Shown here: piece after piece, positions 9,570 through 22,725 of the stretch
Position numbering within the stretch: position 1 is the first letter of the stretch
How the letters are laid out: every line of letters begins with the position of its first letter
Assembly: GCA_028282785.1 (NCBI GenBank)
Contig: JANQHE010000009.1
Location: 1-64,000 of the forward strand
Direction of reading: 5' to 3'
Source of the DNA: Bacteroidales bacterium
GTDB taxonomy: Bacteria; Bacteroidota; Bacteroidia; Bacteroidales; UBA12077
Length of the DNA stretch: 64,000 nucleotides
Notes under the pieces: generated by a model
Databases searched by the model: none
Told to the model about the DNA's origin: nothing
The model's input: only the letters and a program-made list of their open reading frames with translations
Translations under genes and position numbers: made by a program

Positions 9570-10523
9570 TTAAAAGATCTCTTTTGCAATTTTCATAATG
9601 TTATCAGATTGATCCAGAGTGTAATAATGAATACCCGGAACACCGTATTTTATCAGAGCTTTGGATTGCATCGTTGCCCACTCAACCCCAACCTGCCGTA
9701 CTTGTTCAATTGTCTTACATTTTTTTATTTCTTTAATCAAATCATTTGGAAGATCAATACTAAAAGTTTGAGGTAACAAAGAGCTATCATTTAAAGTAGA
9801 AACAGGTTTTATCCCCGGTATAATAGGTACATTTATCCCTTTATTTTTACACTTCTCGACAAAGTCAAAATATCTTTGGTTATCAAAAAACATTTGGGTT
9901 ACAATATATTCTGCTCCCTTGTCAATTTTTAATTTTAAATATTCCAGATCAGTATCGATATTCGGAGCTTCAATATGTTTTTCCGGATAGCCTGCTACTC
10001 CAACTGAAAAATCAGTTGGCATAGCTTCTTCCATATCTTTATGTAAATATTTTCCCTTATTCAATCTCATGATTTGTTCGATTAATTCACTCGAATACCT
10101 ATGACCGCCATTTACCGGAATAAACTTCCTTTTTCCTTTTTCCGGATCCCCTCGTACAACCAACAAATTATTAATACCTAAAAAATGCAAATCAATTAAG
10201 GCATCTTCGGTATCTTCTTTTGTAAATCCTCCACAGATCATATGAGGAACAACGGTAATCTTATATTTATTTTGTATAGCAGCTGCTATAGCTACAGTTC
10301 CTGGGCGCTTTCTAATTATCCGTTGTTCCATTAAGCCATCCGGCCTTTGTTTATATTGGACTTCCTGCTGATGATATGTAATATTAATGTATGCCGGATC
10401 AAACTCTATTAAAGGGTCAATTGTATCATAAATTTCTTGTATAGTGTGTCCCTTTAAAGGCGGTAAAAGCTCAAACGTGAATAATGTTTTTTTAGCTTCT
10501 TTTATTTTGTCGATTACTTTCAT
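9570..10523 (-). CDS. metF: Methylenetetrahydrofolate reductase
   Basis: Flavin enzyme reducing 5,10-methylene-THF to 5-methyl-THF, the methyl donor for MetH. The TIM-barrel motifs FTFELLPPLKG near the N-terminus, ITYH (YINITYHQQEV), PHMICGGFTKEDTEDAL, LVVRGDPEKG, VGVAGYPEKH and DKGAEYIVTQMFFDN match the MetF family. I chose the internal ATG (MKVIDKIKEA), where the family usually begins, over one 21 bp upstream. It lies downstream of metH on the same strand, separated by about 180 bp that contain an inverted-repeat element, so co-transcription is plausible but not certain. Confidence 0.95.
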   Translation of the reverse strand: MKVIDKIKEAKKTLFTFELLPPLKGHTIQEIYDTIDPLIEFDPAYINITYHQQEVQYKQRPDGLMEQRIIRKRPGTVAIAAAIQNKYKITVVPHMICGGFTKEDTEDALIDLHFLGINNLLVVRGDPEKGKRKFIPVNGGHRYSSELIEQIMRLNKGKYLHKDMEEAMPTDFSVGVAGYPEKHIEAPNIDTDLEYLKLKIDKGAEYIVTQMFFDNQRYFDFVEKCKNKGINVPIIPGIKPVSTLNDSSLLPQTFSIDLPNDLIKEIKKCKTIEQVRQVGVEWATMQSKALIKYGVPGIHYYTLDQSDNIMKIAKEIF

Positions 10524-10560
10524 TGTTCTTTTTGTTTGCCCCATCCCTAACTAATCAAGG

Positions 10561-10702: not shown

Positions 10703-13700
10703 CTATTTATAATTCAAATTTTGCATTAGTCGTTTTTCTGCTTCCTCAAAGCTTATCTCACAACGTACTGCGTAATCCTGAACTTGTTCTCGAGAAATTT
10801 TCTGAACATTAAAATACTGCGATTCAGGATGTGCTAAATAAAATCCACTTACTGCAGCTTGAGGAACCATCATATAGTTATCTGTTAATTTTATTTCAGC
10901 TTGATCTTCAGCTTCCAATAAATCAAATAGTGTTTTCTTAAGAGTATGGTCCGGTAATGATGGATATCCAATTGCCGGGCGAATTCCACGATACCTCTCA
11001 TGAAGTATTTCATCAAAAGAAAGTTTTTCATCTGTTGAATATCCCCAGTATTCTTTTCTAACTTTCTCGTGCATCATTTCAGCAAACGCTTCAGCTAACC
11101 TGTCTGCAAGGATTTTCAACATTATGGCATCGTAATCATTTCCTGCTTCTTTAAATTCTTTTACCCATTTTTCGGCTCCCAAACCTGCTGTAACAGCAAA
11201 CAATCCTATAAAATCTTTTCGATTTTCAGATTCAGGAATAATAAAATCCGACAAACACAGGTTTGGTTCATTATCATTTTTTATTCGTTGATTTCGAATA
11301 AAATTAAACTCAACCAGTTTCTCTGAACCGTTGGTATTAAATAATATAATATCCTCATTCCTGGAAACTGCCGGATAAAACCCAAAAATACCATTTGCTT
11401 TAAGCATGTTTTTTTGGATAATTTTATCAAGCATTATTTGTCCGTCTTCATAAAGCTTCTTTGCTTCACTACCCTTAACGGGATCGTCAAAAATTTTTGG
11501 ATACCTGCCAGGAATATCCCATTGGTGAAAGAAATATGTCCAATCTATATACTTTATTAATTGTTTGATTGGATAATTTTCCAACACCTTTGAACCTAAA
11601 AAAGCCGGGCTTTTAGGTTCATATTTGGACCAATCTATTTTTGTTTTATTTTTTCTTGCTTCATCAAGTGTCATGTATTTCGCTCCCGACTTTGTTTTTT
11701 CATATTTTTCAATTGATTTCTGATAATCCTCATATAGTTCTTTTAGATAATCTTCTTTTGAAGCAGAAAGTAAATTATTTACAACATTTACACTTCGTGA
11801 GGCATCTTTAACATAAACTACCGGAGCTGAATATTCAGGGGCAATTCTCAGTGCCGTGTGAATTTTTGATGTCGTTGCTCCACCAATCAATAAAGGAATT
11901 TTAAAATTATTTCTTTCCATTTCCTTTGCAACATGAATCATTTCATCAAGCGATGGTGTAATTAACCCGCTTAAACCTATTATATCAACTTTTTCTTTTA
12001 TTGCTGTTTCAATTATAGTTTCGGAGGGAACCATCACTCCCAGGTCAATTATTTCGTAATTGTTACATGAGAGCACAACACTTACAATATTCTTTCCAAT
12101 ATCATGAACATCACCTTTTACCGTTGCAATTAATATTTTTCCTTTAGATGATAAATCGCCACTTTGTTTTTTCTCTTCCTCGATATATGGCAATAAATAA
12201 GCCACTGCCTTTTTCATTACCCTTGCACTTTTTACAACCTGTGGCAAAAACATTTTTCCTGATCCGAACAGTTCACCAACAATGCTCATTCCTTCCATTA
12301 ATGACCCTTCAATCACTTCCAATGTTGCTTTGAAATTTTTTCTGATTTCTTCTACATCCTGTTCAATGAAATCTAAATTACCTTTTACCAAGGCATAATT
12401 TATTCTTTCCTGAACCGGCCTTTTTCTCCATTCATCAAAACTTTCCTCTGTTTTTCCCTCAGAACCAATTTTATCGGCAAAAGCAAGCAAACGTTGCGTT
12501 GCATCAATTCTTCTATTTAGCACAAGATCTTCTGTTAACTGAAGTAAGTCTTTTGGAATATCATCATAAATTTCAAGCATTGCAGGATTCACAATACCCA
12601 TATCCAAACCAGCCTTTATCGCATGATATAAGAAAACAGAATGGATAGCTTCACGTACCCGGTTGTTGCCTCGAAAAGCAAAAGATAAATTACTTATCCC
12701 ACCACTGGTTTTTGCATGTGGCAGGTTTTCCTTTATCCATTTTACAGCATTTATAAAATCAACTGCGTAATTATTATGTTCTTGCAAGCCTGTTCCAATT
12801 GCCAAAACATTTGAATCGAAAATTATATTTTCCGGTGGAAAACCATTTGCAATCAAGATTTTATAAGACCGCTCAGCAATCTCAATTTTCCTTTCGAAAC
12901 TATCCGCTTGACCAACTTCATCAAAAAGCATTACAATCGCTGCGGCACCATACGCGTGAACTTTTTTAGCTTTCTCAATAAAATCTTGTTCACCTTCCTT
13001 TAAACTTATTGAATTAACAATTGATTTTCCCTGAATGCATTTCAAACCTGTTTCAATAACACTCCACTTGGAAGAGTCTATCATAATCGGGACTTTTGCA
13101 ATATCAGGTTCCGATGCTATCAGGTGTAGAAATTCCGGCATCACTTTTTCAGCATCGATCATTGCATCATCCATGGAAACATCAATTAACTGGGCTCCAT
13201 TTATTACCTGGTGGCGGGCAACATTTAAAGCAACATCAAAATTCTCGTCCCGGATTAATCGTGCAAACTTTTTAGACCCCGATACATTTGTCCTTTCACC
13301 GATATTTACAAAATTTCTTCCTTCGCAAACAATTACAGATTCTAAGCCCGACAATTGTGTTCTACATTTAATTTCGGGTAATTTTCGAGGTTTATATTTT
13401 GCTGCAACCTTTGCAATTTCCTTTATATGTTCACAATTTGTACCACAACATCCGCCAACAATATTTACATCTCCATTTTGCAACATTCCTTCAACCAAAT
13501 CAGCCATCTCTTTAGCCGATTGGTGATATTTTCCAAACAAATCAGGCAAGCCGGCATTAGGGTGAACACTAACATTAAACTTTGAGATACCTGATAATTC
13601 TTCAATAAACGGGCGCAGTTTTTTAACACCGAAAGCACAATTTAACCCAATACTTAACAAGTCAACGTGCGACACAGAATTATAGAAAGCATCAATAACC

Positions 13701-14368
13701 TGTCCGGAAAGTAACCTTCCGCTTTTGTCAACTGTCCCTGAAACCATTACCGGAACAACAATATTCCTGCTTTCAGCAATTTCATTTATTGCGTACAATG
13801 CTGCTTTTGCATTCAATGTATCAAAAATGGTTTCCACTAATAAGATATCAGCTCCACCATCTAATAAACCCTTAGCCTGCATTGCATAAGCATCTTTTAA
13901 TTCATCGAACGTTATATTTCTGAAACCGGGATGGTTTACATCCGGTGAAATCGAAGCAGTCCTATTGGTTGGCCCTATGGAGCCTACTACATAGTGTGAA
14001 TGTCCATCCTTTCTTCCAAACTTTTCAATAGCTTTTCTTGCTATTTTAGCCGACTCGAGATTTAGCTCGTAAGCTAAATCCTCCATTCCATAATCGGATA
14101 AAGAAATAGCATTTGCATTAAATGTATTTGTTTCGATTAAATCAGCTCCTGCTTCCAGGTAGCATTGATGAATCTCGCAAATGATTTTTGGTTGCGTTAA
14201 TGAAAGTATATCATGGTTGCCTTTTATTGGCTGTTTAATATTTTTAAATCTTTCGCCCCGGTAAGCATCTTCATCCAGGTTATAGGATTGAATCATTGTA
14301 CCCATTGCACCATCGAGTACAAAAATTCTTTCTTTTAGTTCTGATTTTAGTTTTTCTAATAGATTCAT
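10703..14368 (-). CDS. metH: Cobalamin-dependent methionine synthase
   Basis: Transfers the methyl group from methyl-THF to homocysteine through cobalamin. All four modules are present in 1221 residues: the homocysteine/zinc domain (about 1-325, with the zinc ligands in GGCCGTN near 306), the pterin-binding domain (about 345-610, [15 protein letters not shown]), the B12 cap and Rossmann domain (about 640-880, with the cobalt-ligand histidine in [10 protein letters not shown] near 754), and the SAM-binding reactivation domain (about 910-1210, with [15 protein letters not shown]). It is thus a full-length enzyme. No cobalamin or SAM riboswitch is visible in its 263-bp upstream gap, only repeats. 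Confidence 0.97.
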
Positions 14369-14390
14369 TTTTTTCCATTTTCTTCTTGTC

Positions 14391-14440
14391 CGTTCTTCGA
14401 TAAACCTGCCTGCCGGACAGGCGGGCTCAGGATGACATTA
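14391..14440. repeat. Nested repeat: CCTGCCTG palindrome inside a TTCGA...GCTCAGGATGACA repeat
   Basis: The palindrome CCTGCCTGCCGGACAGGCGG interrupts a sequence that otherwise reads TTCGATAAA then GCTCAGGATGACA, resembling a widespread Bacteroidota repeat of the form TTCGA-x-GCTCAGGATGACA. It lies in the leader upstream of metH. Related CCTGCCTG palindromes occur before groES, inside queG and after the GT39 genes. Confidence 0.6.
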
Positions 14441-14465
14441 ATGATTTTTTATTAAACCAAAGCTG

Positions 14466-14490
14466 TCAGGCTGAGCCTGTCGAAGCCTGA
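14466..14490. repeat. REP-like hairpin, TCAGGCT stem
   Basis: A perfect 7-bp stem TCAGGCT/AGCCTGA around the loop GAGCCTGTCGA. Read on the other strand the loop is TCGACAGGCTC, sharing TCGAC and GCTC with the hairpin loops around the GIY-YIG gene while the stem differs. Confidence 0.65.
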
Positions 14491-14592
14491 ACAACTTTTA
14501 CCCTAATTTACAAAATAGCTTATATTAAAGTCAAATTAAGCATAATTAAAAATTTCAATTTATTGTGTTTAATGCCAATGGATTAAAATGTT

Positions 14593-14611
14593 TAGAACAT
14601 TAAATGTTCTA
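14593..14611 (-). terminator. Palindromic terminator after the aspartokinase-methionine operon
   Basis: TAGAACATTAAATGTTCTA is a perfect 19-nt palindrome about 20 bp after the homoserine dehydrogenase stop. The minus-strand continuation AACATTTTAATC is only moderately U-rich. It could instead be an operator, but its position behind the last gene of the operon favours termination. Confidence 0.5.
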
Positions 14612-14631
14612 TTACATTTTTCATGTCGGTA

Positions 14632-15819
14632 TTAATTTCTGATATAAGCCATAAATATATCCAGCTTTGGTAAAACAGCTTTTAACTTTAAAAGATTTGA
14701 AAGTTTTATCTTACCTACAACATAGTTATTATGTTGGCCAGAATACTTTTCCGAAACAGAATCAAATTCGAAATAACTAAAATCCACAATGTTGTTATAC
14801 CTTAAATAAATTTCTATTTCGTAATCTGTCCTGTATTTTAGCCGTTTAAAATACTTTTGCTTCTTATACTCATATTTATAATTATGCGACCTGGCTGTAA
14901 TATCTGAAAGCACAGCAGAACCGGTTGGGTAACCTCCTGCTCCTTTACCAAACATAAATTGTTTGTCATAAAATTCTCCTTGAATCACAACTCCATTATA
15001 TTCATCCTCAACATTATAAATGTATTTATCAGGACGAACCAATCTAGGAATTACGAACATGGTAAAGGATTCCTCATCCGATTTTATTAGTTGTGCTACC
15101 AACTTAATTTTAAAATTCTTCTCACGTGCAAATTGAATATCTCCCTCATTTATATTTGATATCCCGTAATTAAAAACTTCATTAGGTTTAACAAAAGTCC
15201 CTAAAGCATGCGTTGCAATAATAATTAACTTGTATAGTGAGTCAAATCCGTCAACATCCAAACCTGGATTGCTTTCTGCAAAACCTAATTCTTGCGCCTG
15301 TTTTAAAGCTGTATTATAATCCAGATCTTCATTAAATATTTTTGAAAGAATGTAATTAGAAGATCCATTTAAAATTCCGGTTACTGATTTTAGTAAATCA
15401 TTATCGTAATACTCTTCAATATTTCTAATAATCGGTATACTTCCACAAGCGGATGCATCGTACAATAAGGACGCTTTAGTTTTTTCCTGTAAATCAATCA
15501 GTTCATCTAAATGATGAGCCAACATTTTTTTATTTCCGGATACTACGCTTTTATTATTTTGCAGGCACTTTTTTACAATGTCATAAGCCTCATCAGCATC
15601 ATCTATTAATTCTACAATAAGGTTAATATCCCGATCATTAATAATATCTTCCTTATTAAAAGTAAAGTATTCTTTTTCCAAGGTCCTTTCTTTTTCCTTT
15701 TGTTTTACGCATATCTTACGTATACCCGCATCGACAGTTTTGCTATGCTTAAGCACATGATAAAGGCTTTCTCCAACAACTCCGTAACCGAAAAGCCCAA
15801 TGTTTATTTTATTATTCAT
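14632..15819 (-). CDS. hom: Homoserine dehydrogenase
   Basis: Reduces aspartate semialdehyde to homoserine, the branch point to threonine and methionine. The NAD(P)-binding loop GLFGYGVVGES is at residues 8-18. The catalytic domain has SGNKKMLAHH, LYDASACGSIPIIR, TGILNGSSNYILSKI, ESNPGLDVDGFDSLYK and GKGAGGYPTGSAVLSDI, the classical hom signature. With 395 residues it is monofunctional; the C-terminal ~50 residues do not look like a full ACT domain. Its start is 10 bp after the metX stop, so it is the last gene of the aspartokinase-metY-metX-hom operon. Confidence 0.93.
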   Translation of the reverse strand: MNNKINIGLFGYGVVGESLYHVLKHSKTVDAGIRKICVKQKEKERTLEKEYFTFNKEDIINDRDINLIVELIDDADEAYDIVKKCLQNNKSVVSGNKKMLAHHLDELIDLQEKTKASLLYDASACGSIPIIRNIEEYYDNDLLKSVTGILNGSSNYILSKIFNEDLDYNTALKQAQELGFAESNPGLDVDGFDSLYKLIIIATHALGTFVKPNEVFNYGISNINEGDIQFAREKNFKIKLVAQLIKSDEESFTMFVIPRLVRPDKYIYNVEDEYNGVVIQGEFYDKQFMFGKGAGGYPTGSAVLSDITARSHNYKYEYKKQKYFKRLKYRTDYEIEIYLRYNNIVDFSYFEFDSVSEKYSGQHNNYVVGKIKLSNLLKLKAVLPKLDIFMAYIRN

Positions 15820-15829
15820 TTCTTAATCT

Positions 15830-16870
15830 TTAATTTTTACAACTTTCTATTTTTTTAACATTTAAAAAGTTTTTAATAATCCTGGTCAATCGTTTAGTTT
15901 CAATTAGGAAACCATCGTGCCCATAAAATGATTCTATTTCAACATACTTTGAATTCTTTATCTGTTGCTGTACCAGTTTAATCTCTTCCGGATAAAATAG
16001 TATATCAGAAGTTATACCTATTAGCAGTGTTTTTGCTTTGATTTTTGTTAAAGCCTGTTCAACACCACCCCTGTTCCTACCAACATTATGAGTATTAAAA
16101 GCTTTAATAATTGAATTATATGAAAAAGCATTAAATCTTTTTATTAATTTGTCTCCCTGGTACCTCTGATATGAAATAGCTTTGAAACTATCTAGTTTAT
16201 CTAACTCTGCTTCCTGTTGCGTATAATTATAAGTAATTGCATTTCGGTAACTTAATAAAGCTATTGACCTTGCGGCTCTTAATCCTGACAATCCTGCTTT
16301 TTCACAATTATCTCCGAATGTCGGATCGGCATGAATAGCTAAACTTTGAGATTCGTTAAAAGCAATATTCCATGGTGATGCAAAAGAACCGCTGGCGATA
16401 AATACAAGGTTTTCAATTAATGAAGGATTAATAATACTCCATTCCAAAGCCTGAAACCCTCCTATTGATGCCCCTATTAGCTTATAAATATTACGAATGT
16501 CCAATTCATTTCTGAGCAATTCGTGTGCTTTCACCATATCCCTTATGGTGATTAGAGGAAAACTATGGTAATACGGATCTCCGGTTAATGGGTTTATTGA
16601 TAAAGGACCTGTTGTTCCATAACAAGACCCTAGTATATTAGCGCAAATAATAAAATAGTTGGATGTATCAAACAACAGTTCGTCACCAATCATATTTGGC
16701 CACCATTCTGTTACATTAGAATTGGCTGTTAAAGCATGGCAAATCCAAATTACATTATCTTTTGCTGCATTTAACTCTCCAGCAGTGTGATAAGTAATTT
16801 GAATATCATGCAATGATTGCCCGTTTTCAAGTCTGAATTCTCCTTTATATTGATATTGATATTCTTTCAT
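15830..16870 (-). CDS. metX: Homoserine O-acetyltransferase
   Basis: An alpha/beta-hydrolase-fold acyltransferase that activates homoserine for methionine synthesis. The nucleophile elbow is GASIGGFQALEWS (Ser near residue 134), the catalytic Asp lies in GITSDILFYPEE and the His in FYGHDGFLIE near residue 318. VIWICHALTANSNVTEWW and GSCYGTTGPLSINP are characteristic MetX segments. Acetyl rather than succinyl specificity is inferred from the family and from the neighbouring O-acetylhomoserine sulfhydrylase. A structured 88-nt segment separates it from metY and ends 14 nt before its ATG. Confidence 0.94.
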   Translation of the reverse strand: MKEYQYQYKGEFRLENGQSLHDIQITYHTAGELNAAKDNVIWICHALTANSNVTEWWPNMIGDELLFDTSNYFIICANILGSCYGTTGPLSINPLTGDPYYHSFPLITIRDMVKAHELLRNELDIRNIYKLIGASIGGFQALEWSIINPSLIENLVFIASGSFASPWNIAFNESQSLAIHADPTFGDNCEKAGLSGLRAARSIALLSYRNAITYNYTQQEAELDKLDSFKAISYQRYQGDKLIKRFNAFSYNSIIKAFNTHNVGRNRGGVEQALTKIKAKTLLIGITSDILFYPEEIKLVQQQIKNSKYVEIESFYGHDGFLIETKRLTRIIKNFLNVKKIESCKN

Positions 16871-16976: not shown

Positions 16977-18305
<1,329 letters not shown>

Positions 18306-18322: not shown

Positions 18323-19720
18323 TTAAATACAAGTGTTACAACATAACTCATTTATAAAAAACTCCTTATGTATTTCTTTTACTGTTTCGTCACGATCATT
18401 TTGGTTAACTATAAAATACATGGCCACATCACTCGCTCCGAAACAAATAATATTAATATTAATTCCTTTCCTGGCTACAGCTGTAAATATGCGCGCAGCT
18501 ATTCCATGATGTGAAGTAAGTCCTTCGCCTACCGCAGCAATAATTGAGATATTTTCGGATACAATTATTTTGCTGATCCCGCGAATATCTTCTTTATCAA
18601 CAACTTTCTTTGCTTCAATTAAATCATCCTGAGACAAAAGAATATTTATAGCCGTTTGAGAAGTTATTACCGATTTAATATTAATTCCTGCTTTGTCGAG
18701 TTCTGCAGTTGATTTTGCCAAAATACCAGGTTTGATACCAACACCAGACCCTAATAATCTTAATATGCCAAAATTATCGCTGTACGAAACACTTTTTATA
18801 ATACCTTCTTTAACTGTTTCTTTTCCATTAATAATTGTTAACGGATTAATTCCTTTTACAGAATCATCTATATTCAGAATACGGATAGGTATTTTCAAAT
18901 TAATTAATGGTTCCGGAGTCCTGGGATGAAGAATCTTAGACCCAAAATATGCTAGTTCAGCTGCCTCAGCATAAGTTAAAGAGTCAATTTTTACAGCATT
19001 TTGAACGATTTTAGGGTCGGCACTTAAAAAGCCTTTTACATCTTTCCATAAGTCGAGTAAAACAGCATTCAAACAAGCGGCAATAGCTGCAGCTGAATAA
19101 TCAGTCCCACCACGGCCCAATAATGTAATTTTTCCTTTCAAAGAAACTCCATAAAACCCTGGAATAACATAGGTTTTATTTTCACAAAGGTTCTTTTGAA
19201 TTGATGCATTTGATAATTCAAGGTTTACCGTGGCATTCTTGAACTCTCCGTCAGTAATTAAACCTATTTCTTCCGGAAATACTTCCTGGCATTCAATCTG
19301 AGCATTTTGCAGAATGTAATAAAGTACCAGTGAGCTAAGCCTTTCTCCATAACTTAATATTTCGTCATAAAGAGAGGGTGGAACTTCTCCGATATATTTT
19401 ATACCCAGAAGAAATCCTTTAAGTTTATTTATCCTAACCTTTAGCTCTTTTTTAAATTCATTTATCAACTTTTCATCGGATACTGAATTTAAAATTGTAT
19501 TAAGCTTTTGATTATAAATATCACTGATGAAACCATCTAAGTCTAGTTTATCTTTTATTGCCCGGCCTATAGCGTGGGCTAATTTATCGGTATTTCCATA
19601 AAAAGCAGAAATAATTATAACCAGAGGTTGGTTATAACTCTTAATTGCTGCTAGTATTTTATTAATTCCGTCTATATCTTTTAAGTTCGAACCTCCGAAC
19701 TTAACAACTTTGTATGCCAT
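18323..19720 (-). CDS. Aspartokinase, monofunctional with ACT domains
   Basis: Phosphorylates aspartate, the first step toward homoserine, methionine, threonine and lysine. The kinase domain starts with VVKFGGSNLKDIDG (family KFGGTS; here GGSN) and contains YGERLSSLVLYYIL and LGRGGTDYSAAAIAACL. The C-terminal third holds two ACT-type regions, around LGSGVGIKPGILAKS and AAVGEGLTSHHGIAARIF. At 465 residues it is monofunctional, unlike the ThrA fusions found in many relatives. It is the first gene of a methionine operon and lies behind a SAM riboswitch, so it is probably the methionine-responsive isozyme. Confidence 0.93.
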   Translation of the reverse strand: MAYKVVKFGGSNLKDIDGINKILAAIKSYNQPLVIIISAFYGNTDKLAHAIGRAIKDKLDLDGFISDIYNQKLNTILNSVSDEKLINEFKKELKVRINKLKGFLLGIKYIGEVPPSLYDEILSYGERLSSLVLYYILQNAQIECQEVFPEEIGLITDGEFKNATVNLELSNASIQKNLCENKTYVIPGFYGVSLKGKITLLGRGGTDYSAAAIAACLNAVLLDLWKDVKGFLSADPKIVQNAVKIDSLTYAEAAELAYFGSKILHPRTPEPLINLKIPIRILNIDDSVKGINPLTIINGKETVKEGIIKSVSYSDNFGILRLLGSGVGIKPGILAKSTAELDKAGINIKSVITSQTAINILLSQDDLIEAKKVVDKEDIRGISKIIVSENISIIAAVGEGLTSHHGIAARIFTAVARKGININIICFGASDVAMYFIVNQNDRDETVKEIHKEFFINELCCNTCI

Positions 19721-19807
19721 AATTAATTTTTCAGTTTACAATAAAACATACCACTCCCATTTAGGAAACGCTACTATTTTTCGGAAAGACATTAATCAAC
19801 TCTCCGG

Positions 19808-19918
19808 CTAGCGCATGCACATAGGCATTAATGGCATTGTAAAATTGTTAAACCAAAAATGATTGACAATTACAAAACCCAATTCGGAACAACTTTTACG
19901 TAAAAATTCTTTCTTCAT
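19808..19918 (-). CDS. Methionine-rich leader ORF (36 codons)
   Basis: A short reading frame lies between the SAM riboswitch and aspartokinase, beginning 17 nt after the riboswitch and ending 87 nt before the aspartokinase start. It encodes MKKEFLRKSCSELG... and ends TMPLMPMCMR followed by TAG: four of the last nine codons are ATG. Clustered regulatory codons near the stop are the hallmark of attenuation leader peptides. A possible stem starts at the stop codon: CGCTA pairs with TAGCG and CGGAGAG with CTTTCCG. Function as a methionyl-tRNA sensor is inference; no downstream U-rich terminator is convincing. Confidence 0.6.
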   Translation of the reverse strand: MKKEFLRKSCSELGFVIVNHFWFNNFTMPLMPMCMR

Positions 19919-19934
19919 GATTTTTTGCGTTTAG

Positions 19935-20050
19935 TTTATAATTTCCCGCCCTACTATTTCAGGCTTGGGTTAGGTATTGGCACCATAACTTTCTTTTGAG
20001 TCGGTTGCCAGAGGTTCTCAGAGCCTAATCTCTCCCCTCTTCTTTATAAA
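19935..20050 (-). promoter_or_regulatory. SAM-I (S-box) riboswitch
   Basis: The coding-strand sequence contains the S-box core: AGAGG...CCTCTGGCAACC (P2 with the kink-turn and the GGCAACC element), then GGTGCCAATACC in the P3/J3-4 region. P1 is closed by TTTATAA and TTATAAA. It heads the aspartokinase-metY-metX-hom operon, fitting repression when S-adenosylmethionine is abundant. The expression platform is unclear: no strong terminator follows P1, and the leader ORF starts 17 nt later, so translational control of the leader is possible. Confidence 0.9.
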
Positions 20051-20088
20051 TCAAACGCCCTTAGTGAAGGATGTTTGAAATGATGTAA

Positions 20089-20121
20089 CAAAGATAAAGA
20101 CAATTTTTCTTTAAATGCAAA
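20089..20121 (-). promoter_or_regulatory. Promoter of the methionine operon
   Basis: On the minus strand TATCTTTG matches TAnnTTTG exactly, with a TTTG exactly 21 bp upstream. Transcription would start about 30 nt before the riboswitch. The first transcribed segment can fold into a hairpin (TCAAAC...GTTTGA with CCTT/AAGG inside, 20051-20078), which may protect the 5' end. Confidence 0.7.
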
Positions 20122-20181
20122 TTTAAGAATCTAATAAACTAAAATTATTTATATATTTCTGTTCGTGTCTCATATCTTAAT

Positions 20182-22725
20182 TTACCTTATGATACCTCCA
20201 AAGAAAACCGCATTTACAAATAATTTATTTGTTCCGTACCAGTATCCTCTGAAATTTGGATTATCAGCAAAGACAATTATATTTCCTTTTCCGAGAGAAT
20301 AATTTAAAACATATGCTGACTTTTCAAGTTGTTTTTTATTTCTTTTATTTAAATAACCGCTTAATAAAGAATTCTCCGGAATATATACAGGGCATGAAAA
20401 AGGATCATTTAACTTTTCTATTGTAAAGGAACTATTCTTAAAAACAGGAATCGTATTTGTACTCAATCCATATGCAACTGGATGTGTATTATCCACTTTT
20501 GCATTGAAAATTAATCCGTTTACCGAATTAGAACGTCGATATTCTCTAGCTGAAGAATAGTTAAATCTTACCGTAGAATCAAGCTTTTCAGGCTGTCTGA
20601 TTTTCAATTTTATCCATCCATTTTTATCCAGTTCCTTTGCCGAATTCCCTATTGCAATTAGGTTCCCTCCATTTTTTAGCCAAGCTTCAAGCTTTTCCGA
20701 TTCGGTTTCACTAAAGGCATGTTCACCGCCTGGTATTATCAAAGTATTGTAATTAAATAAGTCAATTCTATTTAATCTATTAACATCAACTCTTGTAATT
20801 GGAATATTTAACCTAAAATCAAACAAATGCCAAACTTCTCCCGCTTGCCTGCTATTAATTCCATTACCTACAAGCATTAAGATTTTTGGCTTTTTCAATG
20901 GTATAAAATATGAACTACCCAAATGGATACCAGAATATCGAAATCCATTTTCTAATCCAATAATCTTAATTCCATGTTCTTTAGAAATTTCTTTCATTAA
21001 ATTATAAAGTTTATCTGCGGATTTATTTTGCTTTGATACCGGGATAAAAATACTCCCGTTACCAAAATTGAAGATTTCGTTCTCGACCTTTATTTGGAGA
21101 GGCTTTGATGCAACTTTTACTAATAATCCATGCGCTAATAATTTATGAAGTACCGTTGGTGAGTTATAATTTGTCCAATTAAACAAATAGCCTATTTTAC
21201 TTTGGTTAGTTACATTTCCTATTGGCTTCTCAACATTTTCTATTTTATTACCTAAAACTTTACTGGTAGTTGTCAGTGCTTTATAATCTATATTAAAAGC
21301 TAAAGGGAATGTCCAGGTAGATAAATCATAAAATATGCTATCCTTAAATTCAGTCTTTTTCTCAAATATTGATTTTATAAGTCGATATTGGTTTTGATTT
21401 AATGGTACCACAAAAGCCTCATCAGGCTTATAAATTGAATTATTAATCGCGATGTTTTCTTTGTTCTTATAAAAATCGATCTGATGAGATTCTAAGATAT
21501 CCAGAAAATAATTTATTCTGATCGGATCATCCTTACAACCAAATGCGTATGCTCTTACTGCATCATTTTTAGCAAGTTGATCTATTGAAGAATAAAATTC
21601 CCTCTGATAATCCCGGAACATTTCTTTATTTTCGATAGCAGCATTTATTGTTGATAAAGAAACTGTAAACTGATTTTTAATGGCTTGAGCAAATGTTGTT
21701 ATACCATGATTATTTCTAACAATTTGTCCGTTCACTCTTGATTGTTCAAACAATATTCCTATTGAACCATTCACATCGGGATAAGAAGATCCTTTTCCGT
21801 AATAATAATCATCAAAAATTTCTTCGGAAAAATAAAGTGACCCAATATTATCTAATGCTTTACTATGATAAGTTCCTATTTTATACGTAAGTGTATAATT
21901 CTTTTCAGGTGTTAACGGGTTAATTCTTGACAGTACGCCAGGTTGAAAAAAGAAAGTTCCATTTGTTCCCATTTCATGATGATCGGTTAAAATAGCAGGT
22001 TTCCATTTATGAAATGCTTCCAACCTTGCCTTTGATTCCGGTTGTTGAACCAGAAGCCAATCTCTGTTTAAATCAAACCAATAATGATTTGTTCTTCCTC
22101 CCGGCCATGCCTCTGTAAACTGGACACTTACCTGATCATCGATCCATTTATTGCTTTGATGCATATTTACCCAATTTGCAGCACGATTAAAGCCATCCGG
22201 ATTTAAACACGGATCAATTATGATAACACTTTGTCTCAATATTTCAGAAACCTCTTGTTCCTCAGAGGCTGTTAAATAGTATCCTGTTAAAAGGGAGGAG
22301 TTACTTGCACTAGACTCATTACCATGAACTCCATAACCTAACCAAACAATTATAGGTAAATCTTCATTTGTATTTTCCGAACCATTAGAATAGATATATT
22401 TTAAATGATCCTCTCTAATTTTGTCCAAGGTTGCTAAGTTTTCCGGAGAAGAAATAAACATAAGATATAATGGCCTGTTCTCATGCGTTCTACCATATTC
22501 TACCATTTTAACTCTATTCGATTTCTCATCCAAGTATCTTAAGTAGCTTACAAGCTGATCATGAGTAAAATGCCACTCTCCAAATCTTTGACCTGATAAA
22601 AAACCGGGGCCCTTAACCGTGGAATTTAGTTTTATTTTCTTATTAAAATAAAATGAATAATCAGATTGTGCCGTTAAGATAATTGTGTAAAAAAAAACAA
22701 GTAGAAACAATAGAATCCTTTTCAT
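20182..22725 (-). CDS. M14 family zinc carboxypeptidase, secreted, with GATase1-like C-terminal region
   Basis: An 847-residue exported metallopeptidase with signal peptide MKRILLFLLVFFYTIILTAQ. The M14 domain has the zinc motif in WLGYGVHGNESSASN (about residues 128-142), IIDPCLNPDGFNRAANWVN, and TDHHEMGTNGTFFFQPG. The C-terminal part (about 610-715) reads ILMLVGNGINSRQAGEVWHL ... NTLIIPGGEHAF ... WLKNGGNLIAIGNSA, like a class I glutamine-amidotransferase flavodoxin fold without an obvious catalytic Cys. Such proteins are common in Bacteroidota and probably digest peptides in the periplasm. Single-gene unit. Confidence 0.85.
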   Translation of the reverse strand: MKRILLFLLVFFYTIILTAQSDYSFYFNKKIKLNSTVKGPGFLSGQRFGEWHFTHDQLVSYLRYLDEKSNRVKMVEYGRTHENRPLYLMFISSPENLATLDKIREDHLKYIYSNGSENTNEDLPIIVWLGYGVHGNESSASNSSLLTGYYLTASEEQEVSEILRQSVIIIDPCLNPDGFNRAANWVNMHQSNKWIDDQVSVQFTEAWPGGRTNHYWFDLNRDWLLVQQPESKARLEAFHKWKPAILTDHHEMGTNGTFFFQPGVLSRINPLTPEKNYTLTYKIGTYHSKALDNIGSLYFSEEIFDDYYYGKGSSYPDVNGSIGILFEQSRVNGQIVRNNHGITTFAQAIKNQFTVSLSTINAAIENKEMFRDYQREFYSSIDQLAKNDAVRAYAFGCKDDPIRINYFLDILESHQIDFYKNKENIAINNSIYKPDEAFVVPLNQNQYRLIKSIFEKKTEFKDSIFYDLSTWTFPLAFNIDYKALTTTSKVLGNKIENVEKPIGNVTNQSKIGYLFNWTNYNSPTVLHKLLAHGLLVKVASKPLQIKVENEIFNFGNGSIFIPVSKQNKSADKLYNLMKEISKEHGIKIIGLENGFRYSGIHLGSSYFIPLKKPKILMLVGNGINSRQAGEVWHLFDFRLNIPITRVDVNRLNRIDLFNYNTLIIPGGEHAFSETESEKLEAWLKNGGNLIAIGNSAKELDKNGWIKLKIRQPEKLDSTVRFNYSSAREYRRSNSVNGLIFNAKVDNTHPVAYGLSTNTIPVFKNSSFTIEKLNDPFSCPVYIPENSLLSGYLNKRNKKQLEKSAYVLNYSLGKGNIIVFADNPNFRGYWYGTNKLFVNAVFFGGIIR

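Follow-up and report, generated by a model that had tools for sequence, protein, structure and literature searches.

What is a short, methionine-rich open reading frame doing between a SAM riboswitch and a methionine operon? The question is raised by one leader in the window (the whole stretch of DNA analysed, 64,000 nucleotides of Bacteroidales bacterium contig JANQHE010000009.1). An earlier note, made from the letters alone, had read this leader as a promoter, then an S-box riboswitch and then a 36-codon ORF with four methionine codons among its last nine, all in front of an aspartokinase-methionine operon, and had supposed that the ORF could sense charged methionyl-tRNA. The observation is confirmed in all these parts and the interpretation is supported, while the mechanism remains inferred, there being no experimental evidence of SAM binding, of leader translation or of stalling.

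The layout on the minus strand is promoter, upstream hairpin P0, SAM-I aptamer, leader ORF and aspartokinase, the ORF beginning 14 nt past the aptamer and ending 87 nt before the aspartokinase start (Table 1). The aptamer matches RF00162 over the full length of the model (positions 1-108 of 108), scoring 67.5 bits (E 2.7e-14) where the gathering threshold is 44.4, and it is the only match at E <= 0.001 in the whole genome, a second SAM riboswitch being absent at that cut-off. The P2 loop and the J3/4 strand carry the complementary letters TTAGG and CCTAA, which we take to be the defining SAM-I pseudoknot; that it forms is inferred, and so is SAM binding, the ligand class being assigned by homology. 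The T-box model has no match up to E=1 in 19600-20200, where the only other Rfam matches up to that value are two that fall far under threshold. The promoter letters are of the Bacteroidota type, for which a consensus is quoted in PMC7366714 (like the other papers cited here, a source available in part only). They are not listed by a generic sigma-70 scan, and the TTTG and TAT-TTTG columns are invariant in an 11-member alignment of the genus (used for the promoter and upstream part only; the leader end is incomplete in five loci). Protein-family matches give the operon order aspartokinase-metY-metX-hom-metH-metF. Within the operon, hom and metH are 263 nt apart (14369-14631).

Table 1. Positions of the leader features and operon genes in the window.
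Feature	Position	Strand	Basis
Bacteroidota-type promoter: TTTG 20121-20118 and TATCTTTG 20096-20089	20089..20121	(-)	read from letters
Upstream hairpin P0 (TCAAAC..CCTT..AAGG..GTTTGA)	20051..20078	(-)	predicted fold, -10.5 kcal/mol; near-invariant in genus
P1 extension: GCGTTT 20058-20053 with AAACGC 19932-19927	19927..20058	(-)	predicted leader fold
SAM-I riboswitch (S box) aptamer	19933..20052	(-)	RF00162
Leader ORF, 36 codons, MKKEFLRKSCSELGFVIVNHFWFNNFTMPLMPMCMR	19808..19918	(-)	homologous ORFs in genus; synonymous bias
Met-rich end MPLMPMCMR	19811..19837	(-)	letters; order-wide enrichment
Long-range pairing of leader end 19860-19808 with 19774-19727, just before aspartokinase start	19727..19860	(-)	predicted duplex
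Hairpin directly past leader stop (CGGAGAG / CTTTCCG)	19782..19806	(-)	predicted fold; like letters in most of 11 genus loci
Aspartokinase, first operon gene	18323..19720	(-)	TIGR00657
metY, O-acetylhomoserine sulfhydrylase	16977..18302	(-)	TIGR01326
metX, homoserine O-acyltransferase	15830..16870	(-)	best model TIGR01392, under its curated cut-off
hom, homoserine dehydrogenase	14632..15819	(-)	NF004976
metH, methionine synthase	10703..14368	(-)	NF007024
metF, methylenetetrahydrofolate reductase	9570..10544	(-)	TIGR00676

The four methionine codons of the ORF lie at 19837-19835, 19828-19826, 19822-19820 and 19816-19814, and the earlier note had accepted that homologous leaders without the ORF or its Met codons would refute the leader idea. 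Within the genus the idea withstood this check. RF00162 matches were found in 11 of 20 genus genomes and not in the other nine, several of which are incomplete, and a homologous ORF with its frame and Met-rich end kept stands behind all 11 riboswitches, followed by aspartokinase in five loci, metY in five and metX in one. The end is MPLMPMCMR or MPLLPMCMR in 10 of the 11 and MPHMPMCMCKKKD in the remaining locus. Ten of the 11 loci agree in every letter over 14 nt of the ATG-rich stretch. This 14-mer, CCTATGTGCATGCG, is present a single time in 10 of 25 family genomes, always at a genus riboswitch locus, and the eleventh locus, L041, has a one-base variant of it. Of 32 distinct substitutions in a block of 20 codons, 14 are synonymous where 7.1 would be expected (P=0.0026, multi-base codon changes being taken one base at a time); with an in-frame indel, this bias shows the leader reading frame to be under selection within the genus. 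The script that located these ORFs used the AAACGC of the extended P1 as its anchor. A later automatic rule missed five of them, where the Rfam aptamer end is placed too early; four of the five were caught by a wider rule and L041 was entered by hand. Six leader peptides had no NCBIfam match, and their two sub-threshold Pfam matches are of no meaning. A search for relatives by way of the aspartokinase gene returned six loci (Ruminococcus, Aureispira) at 28-30% identity, which were of no use. In L037 and L038 a TCG stands in place of the stop TAG, which lengthens the ORF by four codons (SSES) into the following hairpin; L039 has an in-frame three-base insertion upstream of the 20-codon block.

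Searching 393 genomes of the order gave a match in 115, and the 132 places listed made 139 together with the genus loci; two sub-threshold loci (L174, L175) resemble pieces of coding genes and were dropped, leaving 137. A short ORF starts within 52 nt of the riboswitch in 99 of these, or 98 once L140, which has a terminator, is removed from the leader set; the rest comprise 18 riboswitches with a TTATC-type P1, 10 followed directly by the start of metH, and 10 that are neither. The 98 leaders, spread over 44 genera and 35 families, were pooled into 51 genus-gene units for statistics, and in 84 of them the ATG lies 9-16 nt past the aptamer. Methionine in the last 12 codons averages 1.98 per unit versus 0.25 in dinucleotide shuffles (sd 0.05, 200 shuffles), that is, 35 shuffle standard deviations over the shuffles, and the remaining frames have 0.05 and 0.17. 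The frequency of Met is 0.168 in the 12 codons nearest the stop but only 0.008 farther away. Arginine is also raised in the tails (1.14 versus 0.64), and cysteine slightly (0.88 versus 0.54).

At least two Met are present in the last 12 codons of 64 of the 98 leaders (32 genera, 26 families), at least one in 86, and at least two Met or Cys in 74. The other 34 leaders fall short of two Met, 14 standing before metH and another 14 before metY, which counts against the two-input account given below. Sorted by first gene, leaders with at least two Met make up 19 of 21 before aspartokinase, 28 of 42 before metY, 2 of 5 before metX, 9 of 23 before metH and 6 of 7 before unassigned genes, so that the leader is chiefly a feature of the pathway front. 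Outside the genus the leaders are alike mainly at the end (SMCMR, SMDMRCMR, TMPRMR, PMRMR, CMRMRSC, LPMGMH, MFMRGMRSML), their relatedness away from it having been judged by eye only. Met clusters thus also close the leader peptides of many families whose sequences otherwise look unlike one another. Several of the unassigned first genes are of the HcyBio (homocysteine biosynthesis) type, recognised by Pfam at L129 and L166 and by letter resemblance at L130, L145, L152 and L156; five of these six loci have Met-rich leader ORFs, the exception being L152.

In some lineages cysteine joins or replaces methionine, mostly before metY. Within the order, three of five leaders of genus g60 end in cysteine runs, SFCCCFCCC, SSCCCFCCC and SLCCCCCCC (L083, L115 and L119, with Cys in place of Met). 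In the class beyond the order, 104 genomes were searched, of which 75 had a match, and 98 places were analysed: all those listed except the window's own and one sub-threshold match, another sub-threshold match being kept. (A wider search of 395 genomes, 286 with a match, was used only for loci common to the 104-genome search.) When only starts within 20 nt are counted, the 19 metY loci divide into 7 whose short ORF has two or more Met or Cys among its last 12 codons, two whose short ORF lacks such a cluster, and 10 without a short ORF. The 68 metH loci comprise one short ORF with a Met/Cys cluster, four without and 63 loci with no ORF; clustered ORFs were found at 0 of 3 metX and 1 of 7 unassigned loci. 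The ten short ORFs before metY (nine) or an unassigned gene (one) carry 4.0 Cys per tail versus 0.72 in shuffles, and 1.3 Met versus 0.20; L199 among them goes with a riboswitch of the terminator type. Neither residue is raised in the five short ORFs before metH. The cysteine codons of the Cys-rich tails are mixed (26 TGT, 12 TGC), which argues that the amino acid is kept rather than one codon. Two Cys-rich ORFs fell outside the rule and are excluded from the counts: L295, whose start is nearer the aptamer, and L264, a leader-like ORF behind a SAM-I riboswitch that has a GTG start and the end MGCCCCCWLA.

How could the riboswitch act on such an ORF? The leader start codon is placed where the riboswitch could gate it, and the two layers are therefore probably in series. 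The P1 extension of the predicted leader fold ends 8 nt before the leader ATG. The 3' strand of P0 is also used by the extended P1, making the two structures mutually exclusive, and the calculated energies are close, -41.9 kcal/mol with the P1 extension versus -39.4 with P0 (difference 2.5). Compared with shuffles, the upstream hairpin of leader-type riboswitches is stronger (mean z -1.74, SE 0.22, 46 units), against -0.44 (SE 0.34, 14 units) for the TTATC/terminator type and -0.64 (SE 0.33, 7 units) for direct metH loci. Pairing of the aptamer flanks is modest, however (z -0.71, SE 0.15, versus 0.18, SE 0.30), and many lineages extend P1 by little, the median score being 2 pairs, which counts against the gating scheme. 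The best comparative reason for thinking that the start near the aptamer is the regulated one is that metH itself starts there, 11-20 nt past the aptamer, in the 10 loci where others have a leader ORF. These are L057, L062, L075, L084, L102, L103, L123, L124, L125 and L149.

Between the leader and the gene, the stricter scan found no intrinsic terminator from the aptamer end to the gene start in the window leader, so its read-out is probably translational or Rho-dependent. A candidate of the loose scan, at 19770-19752, was rejected as weak, with a broken T run and 0.3 such hits expected by chance. A hairpin with a T run between leader end and gene occurs in 8 of 87 leaders versus 3.3 expected from shuffles, compared with 15 of 17 TTATC-type riboswitches (16 when all 18 of that type are counted) versus 1.2 expected. 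A few leaders may thus use termination, such as L101, L116 and L139, where a hairpin of this kind comes out at -9.8 to -14.2 kcal/mol.

The segment from leader end to gene start holds more structure than shuffled sequence, with a mean z of -2.01 (SE 0.23) versus -0.55 (SE 0.20) for a coding control, and of -1.37 (SE 0.21) when taken from the ORF end alone; this test took a single locus from each of 40 units out of the 51, namely those whose gap measures 60-330 nt and whose leader has some Met or Cys. The predicted long-range duplex of the window has -32.3 kcal/mol, a shuffle z of -5.1 and rank 1 of 49 gene starts. All five aspartokinase loci of the genus share the pairing of leader end with gene start (shuffle p 0.003, 0.003, 0.003, 0.040 and 0.047; ranks 1, 1, 1, 3 and 7 of 49 gene starts); these loci are related, and hence not independent. 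It is supported in two of five genus metY loci (p 0.020 each) and not in the other three (0.40, 0.73, 0.86), nor at the single metX locus (p 0.93). Within the window's genus, then, a pairing able to hide the aspartokinase start is well supported as a model. A general rule of the same kind is unsupported outside the genus. With the genus included, the 45-nt leader end against the 60 nt before the gene gives z -0.70 (SE 0.20, 40 units; ORF-head control +0.04, SE 0.13) and against the first 50 nt past the ORF -0.23 (SE 0.20; control +0.10, SE 0.16), while the 54-nt end against -40 to +5 of the gene gives -0.26 (SE 0.18, 41 units), with controls of -0.14 to +0.15 for other stretches and +0.20 for the ORF head. 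Without the window's genus this last value is indistinguishable from shuffles (mean z -0.18, SE 0.19, 38 units). All pairing windows tried are reported here; those for the genus were picked after viewing the fold of the window leader.

These parts can be joined into a switch with two inputs in series. SAM binding would stabilise P1 and its extension at the expense of P0, and translation of the leader ORF would be blocked, a step inferred from the anatomy. When SAM is low the leader would be translated, and a shortage of elongator Met-tRNA would stall the ribosome in the Met-rich end. The stalled ribosome would then break the pairing of leader end and gene start, so that the first gene is translated. 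This last step, the least certain, would be translational attenuation of the sort known from erm leaders. With SAM high or Met plentiful, the pairing would stay or re-form and the operon would be off; leaders ending in cysteine runs would report the supply of cysteine likewise. Codon selection at the leader end is established by the comparisons above, whereas ribosome stalling and sensing are inferences. We put the probability of the first two steps, with any read-out, at roughly 0.7, SAM binding and stalling being inferred; the third step as stated is tentative, and we would rate it slightly under an even chance. One difficulty is that a shortage of methionine should lower initiation too, so that the elongator Met-tRNA must fall before the initiator tRNA.

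The competitor that survives best shares both steps and differs in the read-out: an untranslated leader would expose the RNA to Rho, and a translating or stalled ribosome would shield it. The absence of an intrinsic terminator from the window leader suits this account, and for an Mbox riboswitch the available part of PMC12810186 describes control of a small upstream ORF together with termination by Rho. The Rho account is almost as good a fit as the one we have proposed; we consider it possible but on the unlikely side, as it has no need of the structured segment past the ORF or of the pairing at the aspartokinase start.

Alternatively, the nascent chain in the ribosome tunnel, and not codon supply, might sense SAM or Met, as in an arrest peptide of the plant CGS1 type. 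The recurrence of MPLMPMCM or MPLLPMSM ends in families f1, f8 and f112 with synonymous codon differences is what such a peptide would lead one to expect. Across families, however, the ends share little except Met or Cys (MRMR, MDMRCMR, CCCCCC), a variety more in keeping with codon supply than with one fixed motif read in the tunnel, and an arrest peptide is improbable. It is more improbable still that the ATG-rich stretch is an RNA element, for pairing or for a protein, with the ORF incidental to it: the stretch does pair with the aspartokinase start region in the genus and is identical over 14 nt in 10 of 11 loci, but the ATG enrichment is in frame only, the genus has a synonymous bias, and TGT/TGC codons replace the stretch in other lineages. 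Least credible of all is direct binding of uncharged initiator Met-tRNA by the leader in the manner of the Xanthomonas SAM-I riboswitch, where the same two signals act on one met operon leader (PMC7270179, as far as the available part goes), because the anticodon is described there as unimportant, which leaves codon clusters unexpected, and Cys-rich variants do not suit an initiator tRNA.

For the proposed two-input series switch, a riboswitch combined with a leader-peptide attenuator, the parts are known and the combination is unreported in the open-access titles and abstracts listed. In the classical trp, his and thr attenuators, as in the erm type, a gene is regulated through stalling on the leader ORF ahead of it. 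The window leader meets the requirement of a leader-peptide attenuator for a short ORF with clustered codons for the operon's own amino acid, and does not meet the trp-type requirement for an intrinsic terminator before the first gene; it differs from the erm type in relying on amino-acid codons instead of a drug, and from both in being apparently gated by a riboswitch. With other SAM-I (RF00162) riboswitches it has in common the aptamer, the ligand class by homology and the methionine genes, yet the adjacent start codon is that of a Met-rich leader ORF rather than of the operon's first gene, and the window leader has no terminator.

Closer relatives can be found for single aspects. The Xanthomonas SAM-I leader likewise reads SAM and Met-tRNA status in one met operon leader, primarily at translation, but its expression platform binds tRNA directly, whereas a ribosome translating an ORF is the sensor proposed here. 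The main text of PMC7270179, in so far as it was available, uses none of the terms leader peptide, open reading frame and upstream ORF. The B12 and Mbox riboswitches of M. tuberculosis control, or act with, translation of a small upstream ORF, as here, although for other ligands and in another phylum, and with no amino-acid-specific codon cluster described in the parts available (PMC11260477, PMC12810186). In the Cys-rich leader peptides of Actinobacteria a short ORF before sulfur genes likewise has Cys codons in runs close to its stop, with no conserved terminator hairpin, and the accessible part of PMC1262725 mentions no adjoining riboswitch. In sensing of Met-tRNA, the system of PMC3771891 is a near relative by function.

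Among the matches listed in a search of open-access titles and abstracts, outside which most subscription journals lie, none reports a Met or Cys leader peptide behind a SAM riboswitch. The available portions of two broader sources do not describe the combination either: PMC2258182, which records SAM-I in Bacteroidetes, and PMC3766115, on amino-acid attenuators, from which the words leader peptide are absent. PMC9723704, again in part, has one sentence on leader-peptide attenuation before the amino-acid operons of one flavobacterium, and methionine does not appear in its main text. Leader-peptide-like short ORFs in long 5' UTRs have been described in Bacteroides thetaiotaomicron (PMC7366714, in part).

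Many genera of one class thus appear to combine two long-known layers of RNA control in series, a riboswitch for a metabolite and a leader peptide for an amino acid, forming what would be a natural logic gate and a methionine-coded attenuator. We lean, with somewhat less assurance than for the two steps themselves, towards a class-wide composite regulator, the class presumably being Bacteroidia, in which SAM-I would have as its output not the operon itself but the start codon that opens a leader peptide coded for Met or Cys, so that low SAM and low Met- or Cys-tRNA would form an AND gate, mostly without a terminator and with some lineages sensing one amino acid and some the other. In the papers cited here methionine status is sensed through SAM riboswitches or direct tRNA binding, and the present leaders offer a directly testable case in bacteria without classical Shine-Dalgarno sites (PMC7366714, in part). 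The change from Met to Cys codons by lineage is a natural experiment on what the leaders sense. One of the leaders with a cysteine run, L083, precedes a gene for a PBP-like binding protein (by Pfam), which is not a known methionine gene.
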